Below the pieces are notes generated by a model. That model was not told the DNA's origin and did not search any database. It worked only from the letters and a program-made list of their open reading frames with translations. DNA of 37,735 nt from a virus: IMG/VR virus record IMGVR_UViG_3300020579_000002, positions 1 to 37,735 of that record; one strand, given 5' to 3'. The translations under genes were made by a program, and so were the position numbers. Positions within the stretch are counted from its first letter, which is position 1. Each line of letters begins with the position of its first letter. This document shows positions 182 through 37,735 of the stretch, piece after piece.

Positions 182-436
182 ATGCTCACGAAACGAGATC
201 GAACCGCCCTGCAGAAAGCGGTCGAAGCGGTGTTCAAGGTGCGGCGTGAGAATCTACACGCCCTCATGATTCGCGCGGGAGGTTGGACCGAGCTCGGCAA
301 GTGGACCGCTCAGTCGGCGGCGTTCTTGGTGGCCTGCGCGGGACCGAATCCCTCCCGCACGATTGGCGAGAAACTCGCACGCTCGCTCGAGGTGAACTTA
401 GGGCTCAAGTCCGGATGGCTCGATCAATCCCACTGA
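182..436 (+). CDS. cI/Cro-type HTH DNA-binding regulator, single domain
   Basis: This 84-residue protein is predicted to bind DNA as a phage repressor or anti-repressor. Residues 35-82 resemble the lambda-repressor-like fold: a GGWTELGKW segment is followed by GPNPSRTIGEKLARSLE and a closing LGLKSGWLDQ, a pattern seen in many XRE-family phage regulators (G-x-N-P-x-R-x-I-G-E-K-x-A-R, then GWLD). There is no C-terminal peptidase or dimerisation domain, so it is about the size of Cro rather than full CI and would not be RecA-cleavable. A strong ribosome site (GAGG, six bases upstream) supports the ATG. It diverges from the junction gene and is followed by a hairpin at 476-507. Which decision it controls is inference. 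Confidence 0.75.
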   Translation: MLTKRDRTALQKAVEAVFKVRRENLHALMIRAGGWTELGKWTAQSAAFLVACAGPNPSRTIGEKLARSLEVNLGLKSGWLDQSH

Positions 437-442
437 CCGCGC

Positions 443-471
443 TTGCAAGACGCCAAACAGGGGTGTAAAAA
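443..471 (+). promoter_or_regulatory. Candidate promoter at the start of the structured region
   Basis: TTGCAA (443-448) and TAAAAA (466-471) have the ideal 17-base spacer and match consensus at 4 of 6 positions each. The predicted transcription start, about 478, falls at the first bases of a 12-bp stem, so a transcript from here would begin with a 5'-terminal hairpin. That arrangement, just past the stop codon of the HTH gene, suggests independent transcription of the downstream non-coding stretch. Confidence 0.35.
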
Positions 472-475
472 TGAG

Positions 476-510
476 AACGCCCCCGGAGTTGACCTTCCGG
501 AGGCGTTTGA
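476..510 (+). terminator. Strong hairpin after the HTH gene (terminator or 5' cap hairpin of an RNA)
   Basis: Bases 476-487 pair with 496-507 over 12 positions with one mismatch, closing an 8-base loop. The run after the stem (TTTGAT) is a poor U tract. It may terminate the HTH transcript, or, if the promoter at 443-471 is real, be the first helix of a structured RNA. The sequence alone does not decide between these. Confidence 0.5.
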
Positions 511-960
511 TCCGACCGTTGTGTTCGCCGCAACGGGAGAACCAGGTACAGTGACCCACCAACGGTTGGCACTGTAACCCAACCCCTCCCCTCGGCGCAA
601 GTCAACGCGCCAGTGCTGCGTCAAAGGTCAGAGGCCGTAATGGGCCAGCCGCACAAGAAACCAAAGCTAACCGTCTAGTGGACGGGATGAGCGTGATAGA
701 CGCTTGCCGCGAACTTACCCTGCGATTGCGTGAAACAGGCGCATCGAGGGGTTCCGAGCGTCCCTCAAGCCCTTGCAGGCCAGGGAGTAGGTCCGACAAA
801 ACTAACCACTGCCCGAAAGGGATGATGGATACCGTCCATCCGGTGGGCGACTGGTCCTCGAGACGGACATCGGACGTATAGCTTGTAAGACCCGGAGCGC
901 GGGCCATTTTGCATGAGCCAGATTCATGCAGGGCGGCGGGTTAGCGGAAGCGGATTCATG
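476..960 (+). ncRNA. Candidate large structured non-coding RNA or structured late leader
   Basis: No convincing protein gene lies here, but about a dozen helices are packed into 455 bases. Examples: 516-523/529-536 (8 pairs around a TTCGC loop), 548-553/570-575 with an inner 559-562/566-569, 594-598/607-611, 671-675/681-685, 690-694/700-704, 723-730/740-746 (one bulge), 746-750/762-766, 891-894/900-903 and 911-916/924-929. A three-way junction is closed by 806-809/843-846 and holds a CCC-GAAA-GGG hairpin (812-821) and a 6-bp hairpin (824-829/835-840); it is enclosed by 791-796/870-875. Bases 581-588 can also pair perfectly with 746-753. UUCG-like and GAAA loops fit the plus strand. Role unknown: options are a GOLLD/ROOL-type ornate RNA, an antitermination leader like HK022 put, or packaging/replication DNA. 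Short stems also arise by chance. Confidence 0.4.
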
Positions 961-1252
961 CCTACGATTTGTAAAGTCTTATATGCGACATATCCTGTCC
1001 AAACTGTTCTAAATGCGACATCCGTTGACGAGATCCCAAGTTGGGTTGAGGTAACGCGTGGGAGGTCAAGGAGTTAGACTTGTACTTCGCATAATACATA
1101 GTGAGTTAAGTTGGAATGTCAAATGGATCGGGTGACATAAGGCGGGAAATCTAAGGAATTCCTTGGGTCCTGTGGTGACGCTGAGGGTGACCCCCACGCT
1201 TCCTCCCCCAAAAATATTCTGAATCTGCGAGTTCGGGAGTAGTATTCGGCGG
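961..1252 (+). other. Non-coding late leader with repeated boxes; no gene seen
   Basis: This stretch lies between the hairpin-rich region and the first late gene. It contains the repeated ATGCGACAT boxes (983-991, 1013-1021), a -10-like CATAAT at 1090-1095 without a good -35, the perfect 12-base palindrome AAGGAATTCCTT near 1154, and a GTGG...CCAC hairpin around 1171-1198. Open frames on both strands are short and unlike proteins. It most likely carries the late promoter and leader. Confidence 0.4.
983..1021 (+). promoter_or_regulatory. Paired ATGCGACAT boxes upstream of the late operon
   Basis: ATGCGACAT occurs at 983-991 and again at 1013-1021, 30 bases apart (three helical turns), both followed by (AT)CC. 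Each has a small inverted symmetry around CGA; the first extends to a perfect 5-bp dyad, ATATG-CGA-CATAT (981-993). Position ahead of the 29-kb plus-strand unit suggests binding sites for a regulator. They do not match the operator sites at 35679-35726. Confidence 0.35.
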
Positions 1253-1510
1253 ATGGGTAACAAGCGGTGGACACCGTTAGAGATCAACCGGGTGGAGGCG
1301 CCGATTCCGTGTGATAGGACTGCGCGGGTACGGGACAGTGTGTTTGATGCGTTATCGGCATTAGAGGTAGGTCAAGCGATCCAACTGAATCGCAATGCGG
1401 TATTGATTCGCTGGTACATTGGGAACTATCGCAAGGGAAGTCCGGAGCGTCGATTTACGGTACGCAAGGACGGTCGGGCGGGGTGGTCGCGGATTTGGAG
1501 GGTGGCATGA
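1253..1510 (+). CDS. Small phage protein, first gene of the late operon
   Basis: An 85-residue basic protein of unknown function. The C-terminal half (IRWYIGNYRKGSPERRFTVR, then W-S-R-I-W-R-V) looks like the short DNA-contacting proteins often found near phage regulatory regions: a beta-rich stretch ending in a W-R-V tail. No catalytic motif is visible. It follows the long non-coding region and overlaps the next gene by four bases (ATGA), so it is translated with the terminase unit. The ribosome site is poor (GGGAG is about 14 bases upstream). Confidence 0.6.
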   Translation: MGNKRWTPLEINRVEAPIPCDRTARVRDSVFDALSALEVGQAIQLNRNAVLIRWYIGNYRKGSPERRFTVRKDGRAGWSRIWRVA

Positions 1511-1826: not shown

Positions 1827-2065
1827 TGCACATTGAACTCACGATCCTGCGTTTCCCCAGTCAGACGCTCTCACAAGTCGAAGTTGTGGCGGGCCCGTGT
1901 CGTATTCTCCAAGTGATGCGTCGCAATGAGGATGCGTTGGTCGATGCGAATGAGTTGGCTAAATTATTGGGCTTGCGGGTCCGGTTGATCGAACACACCG
2001 CACGCAAGGTCGAATCGACGGAGAGGGTGGACGGAAAGCCGACCGAACTCGTTCACTATGAGTGA
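1826..2065 (+). CDS. Small HTH-like protein before terminase (possible small terminase subunit)
   Basis: A 79-residue protein with a beta-rich N terminus and a helical segment (D-A-N-E-L-A-K-L-L-G-L-R-V-R-L-I-E-H-T-A-R-K) that reads like a helix-turn-helix. It overlaps terminase by eight bases. Position directly before the large subunit is where small terminase genes usually lie, but it is shorter than typical small subunits and shows no clear oligomerisation region, so the assignment is a guess from context. Confidence 0.55.
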   Translation: MHIELTILRFPSQTLSQVEVVAGPCRILQVMRRNEDALVDANELAKLLGLRVRLIEHTARKVESTERVDGKPTELVHYE

Positions 2066-3893
2066 ACTCATCATCCGGCCGGTGCTCACCGACGCCGAGC
2101 GCCGGGAGTTCTCATCGGCACGATTCGAGGAATTCTGCAAGAACCTGAAGATCGACTCGAAGGAGTTCGGTCAGATGCCCCTGACGTTTCTAGGCACGCA
2201 GCGGTATGTGATTGCCGAGATCGCCGAGGGGTTGGCGCGCGGGATTCACACCTTCGTGATCTTGAAGGGTCGGCAGTTGGGGATCTCGACGGTCTTACTC
2301 GCGCTCATCATCTATTGGCTCTTCAAGCATGCGGGCCTGAAAGGCGCGATGGTGACCGATACCGATGAGAACCGGGAACTGTTTCGATCGTACGTCGATC
2401 AGTATATTCAAAGTTTGCCGCGCCGATTGAAGGCGCCGATCGGCCGACATAACCGAACTCAGTTGCTATTGAAGAACCGCTCTCGCGCGATGTACATGGT
2501 CGCCGGCACCAAAAAGCAAGGCGGCTTGGGGCGCGCGAAGGATGTGAACTTCCTGCTCGCGACCGAATGCTCTTCGTGGGGCGATGAGGAGGGATTTTTA
2601 TCGCTCACCAATACCCTCGCACAAAAGAACCCCAATCGCCTGTATGTCTATGAGTCGACCGCGCGCGGCTACAACATGTTCTATCAGACCTGCGAGGTCG
2701 CGAAGAAATCGAAGACCCAAAAATTTATATTCGTCGGCTGGTGGCGGAACGAACTCTATTCCTGGCCGGAGGACTCGACCGAGTTCAAGACCTACTGGGA
2801 TGGCGAGCCCACCGGCGAGGAGCGGGTGTGGATCGGGGAAATATTCGAGCGCTATCAAGTCAATCTCAATGCGAACCAACTCGCCTGGTGGCGCTGGTAC
2901 GTCGCCGAGCAGATGAAGGGCGATGAAATGCTCGCCCTTCAGGAGATGCCGCCCACCGAGGAATATGCGTTTCAGTTGTCGGGATCCAAGTTCTTCTCGG
3001 CTGAACGGGTGAATTTGGCCTATCAGCATGCGGTCAAGCAGGAGGCGATCTACTTCCGGTACATCTTTGGGCTCAATTTCGAGGACACCCAGTTCGTCGA
3101 GACCACGGAGGAGAATGCGGAGGTCACGATCTGGGAGACGCCGGTGCGGCCCAAAGGCGGGGCGGACCGCGGTGGCTCCTACACCTTGGGCTGCGATCCC
3201 GCGTATGGATCGAGTGAGTGGGCGGACGAATTTGCGGGGTGCGTGCTGCGCTGCTATGCGGATAAGATCGTGCAGGTCGCCGAGATCGGCACCTCGAGCT
3301 GGACCGATCAGCAGTTCGCCTGGGCGATCGCGCACATGGCCGGCTGGTACGGGGACTGCATGCTCAATTTGGAGATGCAAGGGCCAGGCGCCGCGGTCTT
3401 CAACGAACTCCTGAACTTGAAACGCCAAGCCGGGAGTCTCGCGCCGGGCGATCCGCGCGCCGGCGCCTTTGATGTGATCGGCCGCATCCGCGACTATTTA
3501 TGGAAGAAGCAAGACAGTATTCACGGCAATTTCGCCTATCAGTGGCAGACCAATCCACGCGAGAAAATCCGCATGATGTCGACCTTGCGGTCTTACTTCG
3601 AGCGCGAGATCATCGAGTTGAATTCCCCGCTATGCTTGCAGCAGTTTCGCAATATCCACCGCAACGGCGACCAGATCGGCGGCGAGGGTCGGGCGAAGGA
3701 TGACCGGGTGATTGCCTTGGCGATCGCCACGGTGGCGTGGAATGACTGGATCATGCTCGAGATGCAGGCCATGCACCGCACCTACGATGCCGAGAACCGG
3801 CCGGCGGAAGCCAAAAAGCAATTCAGCGCGGTCGAGAAATCCGTGATCGGCTATTTGACCCAGCAGAAAATCAGTGTCCGCGGACTCACCTAG
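2058..3893 (+). CDS. terL: Terminase large subunit
   Basis: The DNA-packaging motor ATPase and headful/cohesive-end nuclease. The N-terminal ATPase has a Walker A variant KGRQLGIST (residues 70-78), a hydrophobic Walker B strand ending in E170 (N-F-L-L-A-T-E) and a coupling-type region after it. The C-terminal RNase H-like nuclease shows its acidic residues in order: D380 (L-G-C-D-P-A-Y-G), E439 (N-L-E-M-Q-G) and D548/D549 (A-K-D-D-R-V-I-A-L-A). At 611 residues it is a full-length two-domain protein. It docks on the portal to translocate DNA into the procapsid. The start overlaps the preceding gene by eight bases, as expected for coupled terminase genes. Confidence 0.95.
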   Translation: MSELIIRPVLTDAERREFSSARFEEFCKNLKIDSKEFGQMPLTFLGTQRYVIAEIAEGLARGIHTFVILKGRQLGISTVLLALIIYWLFKHAGLKGAMVTDTDENRELFRSYVDQYIQSLPRRLKAPIGRHNRTQLLLKNRSRAMYMVAGTKKQGGLGRAKDVNFLLATECSSWGDEEGFLSLTNTLAQKNPNRLYVYESTARGYNMFYQTCEVAKKSKTQKFIFVGWWRNELYSWPEDSTEFKTYWDGEPTGEERVWIGEIFERYQVNLNANQLAWWRWYVAEQMKGDEMLALQEMPPTEEYAFQLSGSKFFSAERVNLAYQHAVKQEAIYFRYIFGLNFEDTQFVETTEENAEVTIWETPVRPKGGADRGGSYTLGCDPAYGSSEWADEFAGCVLRCYADKIVQVAEIGTSSWTDQQFAWAIAHMAGWYGDCMLNLEMQGPGAAVFNELLNLKRQAGSLAPGDPRAGAFDVIGRIRDYLWKKQDSIHGNFAYQWQTNPREKIRMMSTLRSYFEREIIELNSPLCLQQFRNIHRNGDQIGGEGRAKDDRVIALAIATVAWNDWIMLEMQAMHRTYDAENRPAEAKKQFSAVEKSVIGYLTQQKISVRGLT

Positions 3894-7666: not shown

Positions 7667-8142
7667 TGGATCAAGAGCGACAAAATCGCTTTTGGCATAA
7701 AGTTCATCGTCTCGATGAAGACGATTGCTGGAACTGGCTTGCTGCCAAGCAAACAGACGGGTATGGAAGTTTTTGGGTCAGTACGAGGAAATCCATGCTG
7801 GCTCACCGCATATCATGGACGCTGTTGGTCGGGCCTATTCCGGATGGCATGAAGGTTCTTCATCGGTGCGACAATCGGTGTTGTGTGAACCCAAATCATC
7901 TATTCCTCGGGACTCAAGCAGACAACATGCAAGATTGCTCGTCTAAGGGTCGTATCCAACATGGAGAACGAGCCGGTCGAGTTAAGTTGTCCGACGATGA
8001 TGTCGCAAGAATTCGCGAAATGTCGATGTTTGGTGCGCGTCGCAAGGACGTCGCTCAGGTATTTGGCATAAGTGTGGGATATGCTTACTGCTTGTCAAAA
8101 AATACTTATCGGGTCAGGAGCGACACATGCCCAAGTCTTTAG
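7666..8142 (+). CDS. HNH homing-type endonuclease
   Basis: The 158-residue protein has a complete HNH nuclease core: L-H-R-C-D-N-R-C-C-V-N-P-N-H-L-F-L-G-T, with catalytic/zinc residues H66, C68, D69, C72, C73, N75 and H78. An N-terminal C-W-N-W-L motif and a C-terminal helix-turn-helix-like segment (R-K-D-V-A-Q-V-F-G-I-S-V-G-Y-A) fit site-specific free-standing homing endonucleases that nick DNA of rivals lacking the insertion. Base composition is clearly less GC-rich than its neighbours, a sign of recent arrival. Its 3' end overlaps the scaffold gene by 16 bases. No intron boundaries are visible. Confidence 0.9.
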   Translation: MDQERQNRFWHKVHRLDEDDCWNWLAAKQTDGYGSFWVSTRKSMLAHRISWTLLVGPIPDGMKVLHRCDNRCCVNPNHLFLGTQADNMQDCSSKGRIQHGERAGRVKLSDDDVARIREMSMFGARRKDVAQVFGISVGYAYCLSKNTYRVRSDTCPSL

Positions 8143-37378: not shown

Positions 37379-37735
37379 AGCTCGTTCGCCTGAGAGACCA
37401 AAGCGCCGTACTGGCCGGGGGACAAATCCTTCAGGTACTTGACGTGAAAGCGCGTGAGCAGGTCTTTGGCCACCACCTGGCCCTTGCGCGAGATCAGGCT
37501 CAGCAAGGCGCTCTGGGCTTCCTCGTAGGTTTTAGCGGGATAGACCCGCTGATCGGCCGCTTGATTCATCGCGTGGGCGATCGCATCCACGGTCCCTTGA
37601 GGTGCGTGCACCTCGCCCGGAATATGCACAATCGGCCCTTCGCCCATCGGATAGATCGGACGCGGTGATTTGATGTTCTCGCACGCTGCGGCAATGCGCT
37701 CCAAGGCGACTGCCATCCGTTCAAAACATTGTTCG
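37375..37735 (-). CDS. Junction-spanning small phage protein (3' part; 5' end at 144)
   Basis: Joined across the circle, the gene encodes 125 residues from ATG 144 back to the stop at 37375. The N terminus is a helix (I-E-Q-C-F-E-R-M-A-V-A-L-E-R-I-A-A-A-C), a Pro/Gly-rich linker follows, and the C-terminal region (A-L-L-S-L-I-S-R-K-G-Q-V-V-A-K-D-L, then L-K-D-L-S-P-G-Q-Y-G-A-L-V) looks like the small helical domain attached to many phage recombination-region proteins. Biochemical role unknown. It is co-transcribed with the DUF2800-like gene (GTGA overlap), divergently from the HTH gene. Confidence 0.7.
   Translation of the reverse strand, partial: EQCFERMAVALERIAAACENIKSPRPIYPMGEGPIVHIPGEVHAPQGTVDAIAHAMNQAADQRVYPAKTYEEAQSALLSLISRKGQVVAKDLLTRFHVKYLKDLSPGQYGALVSQANEL
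37609..37735. repeat. Terminal direct repeat, right copy (circular overlap)
   Basis: Exact copy of positions 1-127. With the coding frame continuing across the join, it is best read as assembly overlap of a circular map rather than a true terminal repeat. Headful packaging with circular permutation would look the same. Confidence 0.95.

Follow-up and report, generated by a model that had tools for sequence, protein, structure and literature searches.

Introduction

In ColE1-type plasmids a Xer site lies beside the origin, and gokushoviruses, which lack an integrase, reportedly rely on the host recombinases XerC and XerD (XerCD) acting at dif. The use of host XerCD at dif has been described for other integrase-less phages, namely CTXphi and other filamentous phages (PMC2731167), and for the non-tailed phages Jorvik (PMC10589892) and NO16 (PMC9966536). 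Tailed phages that persist as plasmid prophages are also known, and these usually encode a tyrosine recombinase of their own (PMC8026635). A limited search of an open-access collection of papers found no tailed-phage case of host XerCD hijacking, which is not proof that none exists.

The locus described here resembles those of the XerCD/dif phages in having a 28-bp dif-like site, a circular genome and no recognised integrase, and the site is likewise present in a single copy at a non-coding location that is kept across relatives. However, those phages are filamentous, micro- or non-tailed, whereas the present lineage is tailed and terminase-bearing. The locus is also reminiscent of cer and psi, the dimer-resolution sites of plasmids, in that a circular replicon has its Xer site next to its control region. 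Some relatives of the phage carry RepA-like genes, iteron-like repeats and parS-like sites, in which they are similar to plasmid prophages; the genome under study differs from these in having neither RepA nor a parS-like site, and no tyrosine recombinase of the kind that plasmid prophages usually encode. If the interpretation developed below is correct, host XerCD hijacking would extend to terminase-bearing tailed phages, and the dif-like site would indicate where the prophages of this lineage are to be sought.

A gene-free region ahead of the late operon

The window, by which we mean the whole stretch of 37,735 nucleotides that was analyzed (IMG/VR record IMGVR_UViG_3300020579_000002), is an apparently complete circular 37.6-kb genome of a tailed phage. 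It encodes a large terminase (2058..3893, plus strand; PHROG terminase large subunit), a major head protein, a head-closure-like protein, an endolysin and a spanin, and its leftward genes include ERF, an exonuclease and a Holliday-junction resolvase-like protein. A direct repeat of 127 bases is present at both ends (1-127 and 37609-37735), leaving a circle of 37,608 bp. A phage terminal repeat was one reading considered for it, but since assemblers commonly use a k-mer of 127, we infer that it is the k-mer overlap of a circular assembly. The large terminase was used to gather the relatives L002-L019, whose terminases are 67-88% identical to it.

The initial annotation had remarked on a gene-free region ahead of the late operon, and our analysis agrees: no credible gene is present in 437-1252. 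The region is bounded on the left by a small Cro/repressor-like gene (182..436, plus strand, 84 aa; PHROG 12107 transcriptional repressor, E 1.5e-8), which is divergent from the leftward early operon and has homologues of 51-57% identity in L014, L016, L028 and L104, and on the right by the first gene of the rightward late operon (1253..1510, plus strand, 85 aa, no assigned function). The open frames in the gap had no Pfam match in any of the six frames, a result on which the idea of a hidden or decayed gene was rejected, and the longest plus-strand open frame (555-878) had no viral relative in a translated search. Since no reading frame there has a relative, the gap is real.

A dif-like site conserved across a tailed-phage lineage

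The more solid result of this study is that the gap contains a dif-like XerC/XerD site, ACTTCGCATAA-TACATA-GTGAGTTAAGT, at 1084..1111 on the plus strand, which is conserved in a lineage of tailed phages that has no recognisable integrase; by comparison, the claim of an RNA, which is dealt with below, is weak. The site has the 28-bp architecture of an 11-bp XerC arm, a 6-bp centre and an 11-bp XerD arm, and it is the only one in the genome. With a scoring matrix built from the relatives only, it scored 23.1, whereas the best score in 100 shuffles of the whole genome was 15.7, and it also exceeded all 2000 shuffles of the region. The same site lies upstream of a conserved non-coding block (described below) in seven other lineages (L003, L005, L009, L010, L011, L016 and L027), and the records long enough to be scanned, those of the window, G010 and G014, have one each. 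In the sequence examined, L014, L015 and L019 have neither the site nor the block, and in L104 the site is degenerate. In the window the XerC arm is intact but three inner positions of the XerD arm are changed, while the sites of the relatives match well; the XerD arm of L005 and L011 is TTATGTTAAAT, which is that of E. coli dif. Because of these three differences from the relatives, the window may have a weak or degenerate site.

A Pfam search for PF00589 and PF00239 identified no tyrosine or serine recombinase in the window, nor in the dif-bearing relatives that were searched, with the exception of G010. That genome has a tyrosine recombinase gene (PF00589; G010:C1:37890-38330, L086) in addition to the dif-like site. 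Given the lack of a recognisable integrase in the window, host XerCD probably integrates the phage or resolves its dimers, and the simplest reading of the site would be that host XerCD is used there either for integration or to keep a circular prophage monomeric. Under this scheme XerC and XerD of the host would recombine the circular phage genome at 1084-1111, and the partner would be either the chromosomal dif, for integration and excision, or the phage site itself, for dimer resolution. A search of a bacterial genome collection, by terminase alignment and by the pattern of the conserved block, returned no integrated copy and no host.

A conserved block near the terminase operon

The second conserved element of the gap is a 66-bp non-coding block, AAGGAATTCCTTGGG-N18-GGTGACCCCCAC-CCCCC-AAAA, at 1153..1218. 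It was matched by blastn in 11 of the 16 related records, its alignment spans nine lineages, and the exact pattern occurs in 13 viral contigs. On the basis of its conservation and its position near the terminase operon the block is a candidate cos/pac site, or alternatively a late-gene control site, and in the phage it would serve packaging or the control of the late genes. The orientation of the dif-like site is reversed in L005, L011 and L016, and that of the block is not, so that the two probably have separate functions. The circular assembly runs through the block, and this points to circular or concatemeric DNA, or to headful packaging, more than to virion DNA cut at a cos site.

Folding of the region 470-960

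The leftward half of the gap had been described as a dense RNA-like fold preceded by a candidate promoter. A scan found no sigma-70-like promoter at the proposed position (443-471), which instead overlaps the T-tract of a terminator-like hairpin on the minus strand (507-476). That hairpin belongs to a strong GC-rich element at 475..508 which, read on the minus strand, resembles an intrinsic terminator, with a stem of 12 followed by TTCTCATTTTTA, and has a weaker T-tract on the plus strand. Strong hairpins of unrelated sequence are found at the matching place in L003 (3883-3921) and L016 (4139-4182), and in L104 after its AAA-like ORF.

Downstream of this element, 509..956 is a gene-free, hairpin-rich segment for which the description was roughly right, although the density of its hairpins is close to chance. 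There are 12 stem-loops of at least five pairs versus 9.7 in shuffled sequence (p 0.15), and we caution that a dozen hairpins per 450 bases of GC-rich phage DNA is about what shuffled sequence yields. The helix reported to enclose a three-way junction is present (GTCCGA at 791-796 with TCGGAC at 870-875), and the part that it encloses (786..880, plus strand) is the best-folding interior piece, at z -2.7. The long-range match between AACCCCTC (581-588) and GAGGGGTT (746-753) also exists, but it is within chance, since by our own estimate a region of this size should hold roughly one or more complementary matches of 8 bases. The proposed GAAA and UUCG-type loops were not borne out: on the plus strand, no stem of four or more pairs carries a GNRA or UNCG loop. 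In addition, neither the content of unpaired A nor the A/T skew of the segment is unusual, and the predicted closing helix (509-531 with 933-956) was equalled or bettered in 91 of 1000 shuffles.

The folding energy provides better support for structure over the region as a whole than for its interior. The plus-strand fold of 470-960 had z-scores of -4.18 (100 shuffles) and -3.38 (60 shuffles), compared with -2.38 to about -2.5 for the minus strand, and with the first hairpin removed the plus strand of 510-931 still reached z -3.24, but two of 81 other plus-strand segments of the genome were at z -3.3 or lower. The plus strand of 510-931 out-folds approximately 97% of the genome. The interior gave only z -1.5 (600-905) and -1.7 (640-905). 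Folded as single-strand DNA the region scored z -2.9, with no gain over the RNA fold.

Searches for a family or a homologue were negative. With Rfam, the whole window had no match at the gathering level, and a permissive scan of 1-1400 with E-values up to 5 returned no match to the GOLLD, ROOL, OLE or HEARO covariance models, only unrelated sub-threshold matches, among them the antisense RNA ctRNA_pGA1 at 18.9 bits versus the 45 needed. The segment resembles the ornate GOLLD, ROOL and OLE RNAs in being long, gene-free and predicted to form many helices, but it matches none of their covariance models even when the thresholds are permissive, and its hairpin density is near chance; the suggestion of a GOLLD/ROOL-type RNA received no positive support. 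Nor did that of an antiterminator like HK022 put: the position ahead of the late genes is similar, but a put site is short, at about 65 nt, and lies downstream of an early promoter, and the window has no identified promoter or put-like pair. Among phage and plasmid records, blastn with 470-960 found no homologue, only one chance match of 23 bases in a plasmid; 16 related phages, searched over their entire contigs, contain no counterpart, nor was one found by blastn and nhmmer in any of the sequence collected, and the relatives carry unrelated sequence at this place. Three exact patterns from unpaired stretches were also tried in viral contigs and rejected; they had 28, 6 and 1 matches, only 15-28 bases long, and the flanking helix was missing from the 28 matches to the first.

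In view of these results, we regard it as possible, though unlikely, that 509-956, or perhaps 475-956, encodes a structured non-coding RNA from a family not yet described, which would be transcribed rightward and act on late transcription, replication control or packaging. Such an RNA would account for plus-strand z-scores of -3.2 to -4.2 that are better than those of the minus strand, for the folding of the three-way part and for the persistence of about 450 gene-free bases in a compact genome, but it has to contend with the unremarkable hairpin count, tetraloops, unpaired-A content and A/T skew, with the frequency of the closing helix in shuffled sequence, and with a segment that has no promoter, Rfam match or homologue and is missing from the relatives. 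At the same time, a purely DNA-based reading of the segment does not call for folding that surpasses about 97% of the genome, and is weakened by it.

Certain short elements in the gap may be sites for proteins. An inverted repeat, TTTGCATGAG..TTCATGCAGG, at 908..932 is a probable protein-binding site; its core, GCATGAGCC(A/G)(G/C)AT at 911-923, recurs in the L005-type gaps and is found twice, inverted, in those of the L027 type, and probably represents a protein-binding site rather than an RNA helix. Two 12-bp direct repeats, TATATGCGACAT and TAAATGCGACAT, which are 30 bp apart at 980..1021 on the plus strand, are possible binding sites.

The corresponding gaps of related phages

The content of the gap is not conserved among the relatives, some of which have a replication cassette that separates the repressor-like gene from the dif-like site. 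Following the homologous repressor-like gene, L028 encodes an 811-aa VapE/primase protein and L016 a RepA-like AAA protein, and L104 has an AAA-like ORF in that slot, as read from its sequence. In L003, L016 and L104 a strong hairpin comes after the last replication gene, and then TTGTGC-type repeats that are iteron-like, the hairpin and direct repeats downstream of the repA-like gene being at L003:3849-4020, L104:6171-6320 and L016:4127-4260. These arrangements probably represent an iteron origin with a structured element. The long hairpins of L003 and L104 are similar in sequence without being identical. In the window, a search that included the RepA-like and VapE families recognised no initiator, primase or helicase, and no origin or iteron was identified. 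As relatives have replication genes and iteron-like repeats here and none was recognised in the window, 509-956 occupies the slot of the replication and maintenance module, and it would probably be a lineage-specific stretch that acts as a replacement origin or as a binding region, or else the scar left by a replication cassette that was lost.

We therefore hold, with moderate confidence, that 437-1252 is a non-coding region for the maintenance and control of a tailed phage, probably a temperate one, and not primarily an RNA gene. In such a region the terminator-like hairpin at 475-508 would close the repressor unit, with the segment 509-956, the dif-like site and the conserved block acting as proposed above. 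Of the functions that had been suggested for the fold, a packaging or replication signal fits best, based on the conserved sequences at 1084-1111 and 1153-1218 and on the iteron-like repeats and replication genes that relatives have in the same slot, although the conserved sequence lies just outside the interval 476-929 to which the fold had been assigned. The interpretation is weakened by the altered XerD arm, by the negative search for an integrated copy, by the tyrosine recombinase of G010 and by the window having no identified origin, iteron or initiator.

The same comparison bears on two other accounts of 509-956. That the segment is nothing but neutral debris of an eroded cassette for a RepA-like helicase or VapE primase-helicase is, in our judgement, unlikely. 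It is in keeping with the genes that L016, L028 and L104 have in that slot, with the absence of a recognised one from the window and with the lack of protein similarity in any frame; however, no residual similarity to the replication genes of the relatives was seen, 450 bp of debris is rarely kept by phages, and the fold surpasses that of most of the genome. Less probable still, but a special form of the reading that we prefer, is an RNA-primed or hairpin-based origin (ColE1 RNA II-like or of the single-strand-initiation type) in place of the protein-initiated origin of the relatives. Here the segment would stand where L003, L016 and L104 have iteron-like repeats, in a genome with no recognised initiator, primase or helicase and with a Xer site alongside, as in ColE1-type plasmids; on the other hand, the only Rfam link to plasmid priming RNAs is the sub-threshold match to ctRNA_pGA1, and the initiator may be an unrecognised ORF. 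A broader scenario, in which a new phage RNA or RNA-primed origin at 509-956 replaced the protein-initiated cassette of the relatives in a lineage that hijacks host XerCD, and in the relatives also host ParB through parS-like sites, with no integrase or partition genes of its own, we consider improbable.

Returning to the region as one of maintenance and control, parS-like palindromes (TGTTCCACGTGAAACA in L003, variants elsewhere) occur in relatives, mostly in the same non-coding gap, at L003:4001-4016, L005:3892-3907, L009:5192-5207, L016:4244-4259 and L027:7753-7768 and 7808-7823. No protein with a ParB domain was found in any record searched, and the palindromes may recruit the ParB of the host. 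Two further gaps have repeated sequence of other kinds. That of L009 (4030-4200) contains tandem repeats of ~60 bp, each with hairpins (CCCGAACGCTTGCGGGACGCCGGAAAGAATCGTGCC...), and in L027 (7800-8060, minus strand) the tail end of an upstream gene is duplicated at a distance of ~120 bp downstream, the second copy being followed by a parS-like palindrome.
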